Below, piece after piece: positions 7,858 to 62,162 of a DNA stretch of 64,000 bases (position 1 is its first letter; every line of letters begins with the position of its first letter). The notes below the pieces were generated by a model. That model was given only the letters and a program-made list of their open reading frames with translations. It was not told the DNA's origin and did not search any database. The translations under genes were made by a program, and so were the position numbers. This DNA comes from Frigoribacterium sp. ACAM 257 (GTDB lineage Bacteria > Actinomycetota > Actinomycetes > Actinomycetales > Microbacteriaceae), in the NCBI RefSeq assembly GCF_007954365.1, contig NZ_VOLO01000005.1, forward strand, positions 62,001 to 126,000, given 5' to 3'.

Positions 7858-7911
7858 GTCGTCCTGCGTCCTGGGCCGCGCCTCCTGCGGGGTGCCGGTC
7901 GTCTCGCTCTT

Positions 7912-8010
7912 CTCAGGAACTCGGCCGAGGCAGATCCTGGATCGTGCACGAATCAGGACTCGCGCTCACCCCGCCTCGGGACTCAGGACGGAACTTCCTG
8001 AATGAGGAGG
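7912..8010 (-). repeat. Dispersed ~100 bp repeat, copy 1
   Basis: On the minus strand it starts CCTCCTCATTCAGGAA, contains TCCTGA, the palindrome TCGTGCACGA and TCCAGGATC, and ends GAGTTCCTGAG. The ends are inverted repeats of each other and an inner TCCTGA/TCAGGA pair flanks the central TCGTGCACGA. Three more copies lie at 47313, 48168 and 61609. It directly follows the nhaA stop codon. It carries no ORF of its own. Confidence 0.8.
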
Positions 8011-9345
8011 TCAGGAGGCGCGTGAGCGCTGGCGGACCCGGATCGTGAGCACGGCCGCGCCGATCAGGGCCGAGACGAGCGAGCCGACGAGCACGCCGAC
8101 CTTGACGACGTCGTCGCGCTCGCTGCCGGCGCCGAACGCCAGCTCGCCGACGAGCAGCGACACGGTGAAGCCGATGCCCGCGACGAACGAGAGGCCGACG
8201 ACGTCGGGCCAGCGCAGGCTCGGGTCGAGCCGGATGCCGGGGAGGCGCGTCACGAGCAGCGACGACACGGTGATGCCGATCGACTTGCCGAACACGAGGG
8301 CCAGGATGATCCCCAGCGCGACGCTGTCGGTCAGGGCCTCGCGCAGGCCGGCCAGGCCGCCGACCGTGACCCCGGCGGAGAAGAAGGCGAAGATCGGCAC
8401 GGCGACGCCCGATGAGAACGGGCTCCAGCGCTCGGCGAAGTGGTGCGTCAGCGGGTGCCGCTCGACGTGGCCGTCCGGGCCGGTGTGGTCGACGCCGGCG
8501 CGGCGCGTGGCGATCGCGGGGACGAGCAGGCCGAGGACGACCCCGGCGATGGTCGCGTGGATGCCCGACGCGTGCACGAGCGCCCACGCGACGACGCCGA
8601 GCGGGATCAGCAGCCACCACGACCGGACGCCGCGACGGACGAGCAGCGCGAACGCCGCGAGCGGGAGGACCGCGGCGAGCAGCGGCAGGAACAGGATGCC
8701 GGAGGTGTAGAACACGGCGATGATCGTGATGGCGAGCAGGTCGTCGACCACGGCCAGGGTCAGCAGGAACGTGCGGAGCGCCGGCGGCAGCCGCTTGCCG
8801 ACGACCGCGATGACCGCGACGGCGAACGCGATGTCCGTCGCGGCGGGGACGGCCCAGCCCTGCAGGGCGTCGCCGCCTGCGTCGAGGTTCACGAGCGTGT
8901 AGATGACGGCGGGCAGGGCGACGCCGCCGAACGCGGCGGCGATCGGCAGGGCCGCCGCGCGCGGGTCGCGGAGCGAGCCCGCCACGAACTCCTGCTTCAG
9001 CTCGAGGCCGACGACGAAGAAGAAGATCGCCAGCAGGCCGTCGGCCGCCCAGGTCCCGATGCTGAGGTCGAGGTGCAGCGCCGCCGGGCCGATCGTCGTG
9101 TCGCGGACGGCGCCGTACCAGTCGGCGGCGGGGGTGTTCGCGAGCACGAGCGCGAGCACGGTCGCGCCGAGCAGCAGGAGCCCGCCCGTCGTGTCGCGGC
9201 TGACGAAGCGGGCGAGACGGGCGCCGCGGCCGAGCGGGCCGGGGGCGTGGGCGGGCGGCGCGGGTGCGCTGGGCGCAGCGGCAGCGGCGGGCGCACTGCG
9301 CTCGGGGGAGGGGGACGAGGAGGCGTCGGGGACGTCAGGGGACAC
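8011..9345 (-). CDS. nhaA: Na+/H+ antiporter NhaA
   Basis: The product has 444 residues from GTG 9345, which follows CTGAGAG at 5 nt; GTG 9381 would add 12. After a Pro/Ala/Ser-rich cytoplasmic N-terminus it shows about twelve membrane segments. Family landmarks are LEFFFVVGLELKQEF-like text after helix 2 (FFFVVGLELKQEF), the VVDDLLAI motif with the two ion-binding aspartates near the middle, and FAFFSAGV in the second half. It exchanges cytoplasmic Na+ for external H+ and supports salt and alkaline tolerance. It is a single gene, ending at the dispersed repeat. Confidence 0.95.
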   Translation of the reverse strand: MSPDVPDASSSPSPERSAPAAAAAPSAPAPPAHAPGPLGRGARLARFVSRDTTGGLLLLGATVLALVLANTPAADWYGAVRDTTIGPAALHLDLSIGTWAADGLLAIFFFVVGLELKQEFVAGSLRDPRAAALPIAAAFGGVALPAVIYTLVNLDAGGDALQGWAVPAATDIAFAVAVIAVVGKRLPPALRTFLLTLAVVDDLLAITIIAVFYTSGILFLPLLAAVLPLAAFALLVRRGVRSWWLLIPLGVVAWALVHASGIHATIAGVVLGLLVPAIATRRAGVDHTGPDGHVERHPLTHHFAERWSPFSSGVAVPIFAFFSAGVTVGGLAGLREALTDSVALGIILALVFGKSIGITVSSLLVTRLPGIRLDPSLRWPDVVGLSFVAGIGFTVSLLVGELAFGAGSERDDVVKVGVLVGSLVSALIGAAVLTIRVRQRSRAS

Positions 9346-9417
9346 GGTGGCTCTCAGAGGGGGTCGCGGGACGGCGGGCACGGGACTGCGCCCGGGTCGT
9401 CGACGACCCGGACGTGG

Positions 9418-47312: not shown

Positions 47313-47416
47313 CCTCCTCATTCAGGAATCTCAGTCCTGAGCCGCGCAGCGGGGGGACCTACCGTCCTGACCCGTGCACGACTCAGGACCCGACCCCCGC
47401 GACTTCCTGGATCAGG
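47313..47416 (+). repeat. Dispersed ~100 bp repeat, copy 2
   Basis: It starts CCTCATTCAGGAA, contains AGTCCTGAGCCGCGCA, GGGGGGACC, GTCCTGA and CCGTGCACGA, and ends CTTCCTGGATCAGG. The stop codon of the broken SDR gene (47412-47414) lies in its last bases. Confidence 0.8.
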
Positions 47417-47875
47417 CCTTCGCGAGCTGCGGGTACAGCGCCCCGAGCGGTGCCGAGAGCGCCGCCCTCACCTGGCGCGAGGTCTCGTCGGCGAGCACCT
47501 CGTGCTCGCCGGCCTCGAGGGCGTCGAGGACGTCGGCGACGCGCGCGGCAGGGTCGGTCTTGGCGTCGCTGACGCCGGCGGCCATGCCGGTGTCGACGTA
47601 GCCCACGTGCACGCCGACGACCTGGACGCCCGCGGGCTGCAGCTCGAGGCGCAGCGAGTTGGTGGCCGACCAGAGCGCGGCCTTCGTCGCCGAGTAGATG
47701 CCGGCGACGGCGTACCAGGACAGGACAGGGCGGAGTGGATGTCGATGATCGCGGTGCCGCCGCCGTGGGCCGAGAGGAGGGGCGCGTAGGCCCGGGCGAG
47801 GAACAGCGGCCCCAGGAAGTTGGTCTCGACGTCCGCACGGATCTCGTCGTCGGTGTGGCTGAGGATGCCCGGCGT
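47412..47875 (-). pseudogene. Truncated and frameshifted short-chain dehydrogenase
   Basis: The C-terminal part reads WYAVAGIYSATKAALWSATNSLRLEL, with the YxxxK-type catalytic pair, and AGVQVVGVHVGYVDTGMA. The middle part, ETNFLGPLFLARAYAPLL and GTAIIDIHSALS, is in a different frame. A tandem duplication of GGACA at 47718-47727 accounts for the shift, since removing five bases joins HSALS to WYAVAG. The whole N-terminal cofactor-binding half is missing, so this is a dead SDR gene. Confidence 0.85.
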
Positions 47876-48038
47876 GGAGCGCCTCACCTCGGCGACGCCC
47901 TCCGACGCGGCCGCGCTCGCGCACGTGGTGTCGGCGGTCATGATGCTCGCGATGTCGTCGGCGGTCGACGAGTCCGTCCCCGCCGACGAGATCGTCGCCG
48001 GGGTGCGCCGCCAGCTCGAGGTCGTCCTGCCGCGCTGA
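47876..48038 (+). pseudogene. C-terminal remnant of a TetR-like regulator
   Basis: The frame ending at 48038 reads SDAAALAHVVSAVMMLAM and VPADEIVAGVRRQLEVVLPR, with G or C at nearly every third position, and resembles the last helices of a TetR protein. No start or helix-turn-helix domain is present; the left side joins the dead SDR gene. Confidence 0.6.
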
Positions 48039-48138: not shown

Positions 48139-48167
48139 TCACACGACCCCGCGCGTCCTGCGGCTCG

Positions 48168-48265
48168 CCTCATTCAGGAACACAGATCCTGATCCGCGCA
48201 CCCGGGGGACTCGCCGTCCTGAGTCGTGCACGATCCAGGATTCGCACCCCGAGAATTCCTGGACT
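48168..48265 (+). repeat. Dispersed ~100 bp repeat, copy 3
   Basis: It starts CCTCATTCAGGAA, contains GATCCTGATCCGCGCA, GGGGGAC, GTCCTGA, TCGTGCACGATCCAGGA and ends AATTCCTGGA. It has the same orientation as copy 2, with the gene remnants between them. Confidence 0.8.
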
Positions 48266-48307
48266 GGCGACGCCGATCCCGACGAGCGAGGACGGCCGAC
48301 ACCTCGC

Positions 48308-61608: not shown

Positions 61609-61709
61609 CCTCCTCATTCAGGAAGATCGGACCTGAGCCGCGCGAGCGGGGGAGGCGGAGTCCTGACTCGTGCACCGATCAGGAACTACGGATGGCGAGT
61701 TCCTGAATG
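61609..61709 (+). repeat. Dispersed ~100 bp repeat, copy 4
   Basis: It starts CCTCATTCAGGAA, contains ACCTGAGCCGCGCGA, CGGGGGAGG, AGTCCTGA, CTCGTGCACCGATCAGGA, and ends GAGTTCCTGAAT. It shares ends, length and internal words with the copies at 7912, 47313 and 48168. Confidence 0.8.
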
Positions 61710-61795
<86 letters not shown>

Positions 61796-61818
61796 GCACA
61801 GAGCCCGGGCATGCAGAA

Positions 61819-61874: not shown

Positions 61875-62162
61875 CTACTTGACCGCAGCCTTGAGCTTGC
61901 TGCCGGCGCTGACCTTGACCGAGTCGCTCGCGGCGATCTCGAGGGCCTCGCCCGTCTGCGGGTTGCGACCCGTGCGAGCGGCGCGGTGCGTCTTCTCGAA
62001 GGCGATCCACCCGGGGATGGTGACCTTCGTGCCGTCGGCGACCGACTTCGACACGACGGAGAAGAAAGCGTCGACGACGCCGCTGACGGCGGCCTGGCTC
62101 TGGCCGGACTCGGAAGCGACAGCTGCGACGAGCTCGGTGCGGTTCAGTGACTTGTCAGCCAT
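61875..62162 (-). CDS. hup: HU-family DNA-binding protein
   Basis: The 95-residue protein is the standard HU size, without the long lysine-rich tail of some actinobacterial HU proteins. It starts MADKSLNRTELVAAVA, has VTIPGWIAFEKTHRAARTGRNPQTGE with the DNA-intercalating proline arm, and ends KLKAAVK. It binds and bends chromosomal DNA. ATG 62162 follows GAGGAGG at a good distance. It is transcribed alone, with the hairpin at 61819 as terminator. Confidence 0.96.
   Translation of the reverse strand: MADKSLNRTELVAAVASESGQSQAAVSGVVDAFFSVVSKSVADGTKVTIPGWIAFEKTHRAARTGRNPQTGEALEIAASDSVKVSAGSKLKAAVK

Follow-up and report, generated by a model that had tools for sequence, protein, structure and literature searches.

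A sequence of about 100 bp built of nested inverted repeats occurs four times within the window, that is, the whole stretch of 64,000 nucleotides analysed here. The window is part of contig 10 in G000, a genome of 3.33 Mb whose relatives place it in Frigoribacterium. A sequence-only reading had taken the four copies for a non-autonomous mobile palindrome of the REP or MITE kind, or for a structured RNA element. The question raised by this locus is whether such a sequence is best understood through how it moves, through how its transcript folds, or as a site in double-stranded DNA.

Copies and neighbouring genes in the window

All four copies were recovered within a few bases of the places first reported for them, as follows.

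7907..8009, minus strand: copy 1; orthologous copies in genomes G007 and G012
47314..47416, plus strand: copy 2; same site filled in all four genomes that carry the element
48166..48268, plus strand: copy 3; flanked by the end of a short coding remnant (48038) and by a NUDIX gene (48320), both on the plus strand
61610..61712, plus strand: copy 4; between an HU-type gene (61875-62162, minus) and ctaG (minus)

The shared end motif, CCTCATTCAGGAA, was exact at 7995-8007 (minus strand), 47316-47328, 48168-48180 and 61612-61624. With up to two mismatches it matched six times in the window, two of these being other ends of copies, compared to 0.22 matches expected by shuffling. The opposite end was also as described, with the variants TTCCTGGA in copies 2 and 3 and TTCCTGAGA in copy 1, and the inner boxes and palindromic centre were confirmed, the centre of the family being TCCTGAnYCGTGCACGRnTCAGGA.

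The copies had further been said to abut gene 3' ends, which proved right as a tendency. A minus-strand gene at 8011-9381, for a Na+/H+ antiporter that we take to be NhaA, ends 1 bp before the left end of copy 1, which in turn lies upstream of an MFS transporter gene on the same strand. Copy 2 sits 5' of the gene for RNase J and runs over the stop codon of a minus-strand remnant of an SDR gene. Copy 4 is antisense to both neighbours and lies 162 bp from the end of the HU-type gene, which is followed by a terminator-like hairpin.

Two further features of these flanks were observed. At 47412-48038 a short-chain dehydrogenase fragment in G000 runs into the end of another gene, and G007 and G011 are about 800 bp longer there, which points to a deletion remnant between copies 2 and 3 in G000. 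At 61720-61800, directly after copy 4, lies a CAGGCA tandem repeat; microsatellites were not enriched beside copies (right flanks 33/126 and left flanks 36/125, compared to 12/47 for control 3' regions).

Anatomy of the element

The element is about 103 bp long and nearly always ungapped, with linkers that vary in sequence and are fixed in length (a one-base indel was present in 3 of 62 aligned copies). Its boxes follow in the order below, numbered from the C of CTCATTCAGGAA as 0 in a position table that still included irregular copies, and with the corresponding coordinates of copy 2.

-3 to 11 (copy 2, 47314-47328): left end or box1, CTCCTCATTCAGGAA; then a 5-nt linker
17-23 (47334-47340): box2, gTCCTGA; then 11 nt
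35-40 (47352-47357): box2' place, TCAGGA or GCAGGA in the minor subtype B and GGGGGA-like in the main subtype A (GGGGGA in copy 2); then a 6-nt linker
47-53 (47364-47370): box3, gTCCTGA
56-63 (GTGCAC at 47374-47379): centre, CGTGCACG
66-71 (47383-47388): box4, TCAGGA; then a 15-nt linker
87-95 (47404-47412): box5, TTCCTGAAT; then nnnG

Positions 0-11 are invariant by ascertainment, the copies having been found through them; in G012 the form CTCGTTCAGGAA is commoner than CTCATTCAGGAA. The layout amounts to five half-sites, six in a subtype, that alternate between TCAGGA and TCCTGA in orientation, with centres 13, 30, 18 and 22 bp apart, the optional sixth splitting the 30 bp into 17 and 13. The array also has GTGCAC at its centre and, at its left end, a CTCCTC that is directional; the terminal inverted boxes are TTCAGGAA and TTCCTGAA.

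Copy number in the genome

The family extends well beyond the window, so the sequence-only reading is not refuted by a lack of further copies in the genome. The exact 12-mer CTCATTCAGGAA occurred 64 times in G000 and its reversed control not once. A sequence-only profile, R1, was built from 62 of these loci; the two left out were a fragment and an overlapping match that read a fully palindromic copy in reverse. When 150 of 3922 first-look candidates in G000 were scored, R1 gave 145 matches, of which 76 scored at least 44 bits and 69 scored lower. All but one of the weaker matches (68/69) overlapped full copies, the remaining one being a lone fragment (C7:549434-549467), and none of the 150 scored candidates was a half-decayed copy. 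Among 50 listed matches to exact TCAGGA-N7-TCCTGA, 49 lay in full copies and one in this lone fragment, so among the matches listed the half-site pair hardly occurs alone.

Tandem and inverted pairs of copies occur. The most alike dispersed copies were one G000 pair with 93/104 identical positions and a best G007 pair with 96/104, and no two copies among those compared in either genome were identical. Several G000 and G007 copies have, no more than about 200 bp away, a second dispersed palindromic repeat in which CGAGGGCGGGT boxes face ACCCGCCCTCG boxes (right flanks at loci L006, L036, L146, L158, L159, L160, L181 and L098).

Distribution and turnover of sites

At E<=1e-6 the element was present in 4 of 16 Frigoribacterium genomes: G000, G007, F. 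faeni AS3.2 (G012) and Frigoribacterium sp. PhB116 (G011). Across Microbacteriaceae, under stricter filters, it was confined to four of the 299 genomes sampled and to a single genus out of 85. RNase J and ctaG both show the four carriers to be nearest kin: for RNase J they are 97-99% identical to the window (others at most 94%) and for ctaG 92-94% (others at most 86%). With up to three mismatches, the core palindrome was counted 75 times in G000, 69 in G007, 44 in G012 and 30 in G011 (control pattern 0). The same search for decayed remnants gave none in 11 of the 12 non-carriers and one in G010. At the looser E<=0.01 in 60 genomes, G005, G018 and G030, all outside the clade, gave one weak match each (E 0.003-0.009), which were taken as chance. 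Viral contigs gave no match to one strict pattern, and plasmids none to one copy by distant blastn. Within the genomes searched, the element is restricted to one small Frigoribacterium clade.

Individual sites differ even among the carriers. The ctaG site (copy 4) is filled in G000 and G007 and empty in G011, G012 and the 9 non-carriers, of 12, that could be aligned there; in G011, CCTCCTCCT runs straight into CCCCGGG, which lies beyond the element in filled genomes. The place of copy 3 has different flanks in G007 and G011, and no copy was seen there in either. One filled G012 site was empty in G011 and one filled G011 site empty in G000, with reshuffled flanks at both. No target-site duplication was readable, either at the near-clean empty ctaG site of G011 or at the other sites, where flanks were reshuffled. 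At least some sites are evidently dispensable, because their presence is polymorphic between close relatives. Linkers are near-random between copies, yet the nearest species have no copies; either an old family was lost elsewhere without trace, or new copies begin with unlike linkers.

On a larger scale, the stretch C1:1734978-2467172 of the complete genome G007 (0.73 Mb) held a single copy (at 2082788) among matches at E<=1e-9; given 70 distinct copies over 3.33 Mb, one would expect about 15. Depletion around the replication terminus was considered for this thin stretch (1.74-2.47 Mb) and rejected, as gene-strand bias puts the switch nearer 1.5 Mb; GC skew over 20 samples of G007 was uninformative on the place of the terminus.

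A gene at L134:1041-1742 (with L091 and L112), which we take to be lipoprotein-like, occupies three places in G007 with elements beside each. The three gene copies are 98-99% identical over about 760 bp and had no Pfam match. This repeated gene fits the element copies found at the ends of G000 contigs C6, C9, C10 and C11; an rRNA operon was discarded as the cause of copies at contig ends, the shared sequence being the repeated protein gene.

Conservation of boxes at orthologous sites

Copies with flanks (72 from G000 and 69 from G007) were paired by flank similarity. This gave 49 one-to-one pairs in which both flanks matched, of which 48 (at least 72/104 identical) were used and one was dropped for low identity. 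Aligned flanks had median identities of about 93% and 92%; ungapped, the first 60 bp on each side differed by 41-60%, because indels shift the register. Box sites had changed at 128 of 2400 (5.3%) and linker sites at 441 of 1536 (28.7%; Fisher p about 3e-91), and boxes were less changed than linkers in 47 of the 48 pairs. Nineteen positions were without change in any pair, namely the CAGG/CCTG cores of boxes 1-3, the GCA of GTGCAC, the GG of box4 and the CC of box5, and the inner boxes were as constrained as the element ends. Paralogs differed from one another at 8-9% of box positions and at 61% of linker positions, base composition by itself predicting 71% for the latter.

Copy 2, filled in all four carriers, has unlike first linkers and largely the same boxes in each; box1 has one change in G012 and GTGCAC one change in G007. 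In G011 its box4 is damaged, the one decayed copy known. The lower rate of change in boxes indicates selection on copies in place, with the reservation that the profile came from copies with the exact box1 12-mer and the G007 loci from matches at E<=1e-9, so that strongly decayed orthologs may have escaped the count and box conservation may be exaggerated.

Placement relative to genes

Genes were predicted with a custom codon-usage gene finder around 148 good copies from the four genomes. Seven of the 148 were excluded for overlap with a predicted gene, and two had no left gene. The left gene pointed into the element for 108 of the 139 placed copies, a count in which the same site in several species recurs and which is therefore not one of independent cases. 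Where it did so, the stop codon lay at a median of 22.5 bp before the left end. In tandem settings there was a modest bias toward the sense orientation, 22:7 over antisense in G000 (p = 0.008) and 23:10 in G007 (p = 0.035), and divergent settings were rarer (8/115 in G000 and G007 together) than among control gaps of at least 120 bp (33/113). The 12 intergenic bp before the element contained 1-3% A and 72-74% pyrimidines, compared to 8-9% and 54-58% in the opening 12 bp of the 3' regions of 101 controls.

Pairing within the element

The paired changes in the arms, whose lack would count against the sequence-only reading, are mostly but not wholly missing: there was a modest excess between linker1 and linker2 and none in the central and outer helices or the box4-box5 linker. 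Pairing of linker1 with linker2 was 0.385 compared to 0.311 after shuffling over 65 G000 copies (1/300 shuffles) and 0.403 compared to 0.320 over 61 G007 copies (0/300); slid registers were mostly without excess, one in G007 reaching 10/300. Subtype B gave 0.590 against 0.473 (13 G000 copies) and 0.467 against 0.380 (20 G007 copies), and subtype A 145/500 and 29/500 shuffles. Positions 15 and 43 paired in 40/61 G007 copies (28.2 expected) and 28/65 G000 copies (28.1 expected). A fold that includes the linker1-linker2 hairpin reached 67.9% paired cells compared to 66.6% (2/500 shuffles) and a covariation of 0.121 compared to 0.106 (6/500), values that relatedness can yield. In ortholog pairs, five changed linker1-linker2 site pairs stayed paired by double change and 79 were made or broken; slid registers kept between 0 and 4.

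Elsewhere in the element, symmetric positions of the outer and central helices showed no compensatory excess, nor did the box4-box5 linker show an excess of pairing. Positions 54-56 paired with 63-65 at 0.415 compared to 0.469 shuffled in G000 and 0.415 compared to 0.436 in G007. Positions 55 and 64 have a Y/R preference, and their Watson-Crick pairs numbered 31 against 32.2 expected (G000) and 25 against 26.5 (G007). A symmetric preference of this kind without covariation fits protein half-sites better than pairing.

Single folds of the window copies scored z -1.5 to -3.6 relative to shuffles, and another subtype A copy -3.6; three B-like copies reached -6 to -10. Rfam gave no hit at gathering score in the window and ten other loci, and in ten more loci only a tRNA at its own gathering score. 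A general RNA structure was rejected, as Rfam, RNAalifold, single folds, pair counts and ortholog double changes gave it no general support. The structured-RNA side of the sequence-only reading is at best weakly favoured, through a linker1-linker2 excess that is modest and strongest in the minor subtype B. In some copies pairing may play a part in one hairpin, but it leaves the boxes unexplained.

Alternative explanations

The sequence-only reading was right on the nested inverted boxes, on the dispersal of many copies and on their position, mostly close to the 3' ends of genes. The search for a REP-associated transposase that it suggested was negative: Y1_Tnp (PF01797), the transposase family searched genome-wide in G000, had no match there at E<=1, leaving a REP/RAYT system unsupported, while a control search matched 10 of 14 named genomes, six of them over cut-off. 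A MITE-like origin agrees with sites being polymorphic between close relatives and lacks a readable target-site duplication. The element could still be wholly a non-autonomous REP/REPIN- or MITE-kind mobile element, with boxes that would be transposase-binding ends and subends kept through the copying of copies with good boxes. The 76 copies in G000 (150 of 3922 candidates scored), their restriction to one clade, sites polymorphic between sister species, the terminal inverted boxes TTCAGGAA/TTCCTGAA, the tandem and inverted pairs and the dispersed G000 pair alike at 93/104 all speak for it. We judge this account rather unlikely: the conservation of boxes at detected orthologous sites is not expected of inert copies, REPIN-type compensatory changes are mostly absent, no copies among those compared are identical (best 93/104 and 96/104), and neither Y1_Tnp in G000, for all the control matches, nor a target-site duplication was seen.

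A 3'-UTR RNA element, serving as terminator or mRNA-end stabiliser through a folded transcript with hairpins box1-box2-box2'-box3 and box4-box5, would suit the sense orientation a median of 22.5 bp past stop codons where the left gene points in, and the A-poor, C-rich lead-in tract, which is stronger than in the 101 control 3' regions. It also draws on the strong folds of three B-like copies (z -6 to -10), on the linker1-linker2 excess over all copies in G000 and G007 and on the whole fold (2/500 shuffles for cells paired, 6/500 for covariation). Against these stand the weak folds of the window copies (z only -1.5 to -3.6), the box4-box5 linker without excess, double changes in orthologs numbering 5 against 79 pairs made or broken, the lack of an Rfam match at gathering score in the window or ten other loci, and antisense tandem placements in 7/29 and 10/33 cases, and we hold this explanation to be distinctly improbable. 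Position just past stop codons in sense, together with a near-identical lipoprotein-like gene bordered by elements at three G007 places, would also recall a recombination site like the integron attC sites found downstream of cassette genes. The core boxes R' and R'' of attC are defined by GTT/AAC, however, and by eye the consensus has no conserved AAC/GTT core boxes; moreover, identity in the triplicated gene spans the gene and ends before the elements, and the copies are dispersed rather than in cassette arrays. Such a site is very unlikely indeed.

A proposed composite protein-binding site

We favour a composite double-stranded DNA recognition site for a putative DNA-binding protein, probably spread first as a small mobile element, and consider the chances that this is correct to be evenly balanced. 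A putative clade-restricted, probably dimeric protein would read the TCAGGA half-sites two by two and assemble over the whole 103 bp. Because the elements sit at gene ends, a role where transcription units end or meet is suggested, which might lie, for example, in chromosome organisation, the handling of supercoils or insulation. The family would have spread as a small non-autonomous mobile element and later been kept by selection; for its origin, spread as a small mobile element is likely. A bolder form of the proposal is possible but doubtful, namely an undescribed chromosome-wide site system, with dozens of rigid 103-bp arrays of five or six boxes at gene ends, selectively kept and assembling a putative clade protein, which would, for instance, organise the chromosome or isolate neighbouring transcription units.

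As a partner, an AbiEi/DUF559-like (REase_MTES_1575-like) protein encoded between two inward-facing copies (L133:862-1848) was considered and dropped; it has a close ortholog only in G000 and G007 among the 16 genomes and distant relatives in all 16.

Copies seem constrained in place, yet the 12 other Frigoribacterium genomes examined do without any. The family would be a small, tractable case for studying the origin and upkeep of binding sites spread over a whole genome, with non-carrier sister species as controls. If a reader protein is found, it may represent a novel type of site-specific chromosome protein.

Comparison with known systems

No description of the element was found in the literature searched, a search outside of which most subscription journals lay. 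REP-type palindromes have their explanation in a transposase and a hairpin; here the hairpin signal is modest and no RAYT was found in G000. The element resembles REPs and REPINs (PMC3116915) in being high-copy and extragenic, with inverted ends that are highly conserved and a spacer that is constant in length and less so in sequence. According to that account, compensatory changes are common in REPINs and a RAYT accompanies them; the element differs in its few compensatory changes, in the absence of Y1_Tnp from G000 and in having five or six boxes rather than two ends (PMC3116915). In a model (PMC8049555), REP-type populations can be stably kept if each copy benefits the host, and the constraint in place seen here would fit such a benefit. 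A REP carries a GTAG or CGTC tag at one end (PMC3733652). By eye, the consensus has neither tag and ends in CTCCTCATTCAGGAA and TTCCTGAATnnnG.

ERIC, RUP and RU-1 to RU-3 are MITE-like small mobile sequences (PMC2229807; PMC2759123). They are intergenic, measure about 100-130 bp and have terminal inverted repeats, in all of which the element is alike. The element differs in having no readable target-site duplication and in inner boxes as constrained as its ends. The MIRU of mycobacteria are likewise actinobacterial and intergenic, measure 50-100 bp and tend toward the orientation of the flanking gene, as the element does; the multi-box palindromic layout is the element's own. Chromosomal site systems, such as the sites of Noc and SlmA or the gyrase-binding BIMEs at gene ends, consist of tens of short palindromic protein-binding sites distributed along the chromosome, as is proposed for the element. 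Those are usually one short site each, whereas the element, carried by 4 of 16 Frigoribacterium genomes and without clear depletion at the terminus, is a rigid 103-bp array.
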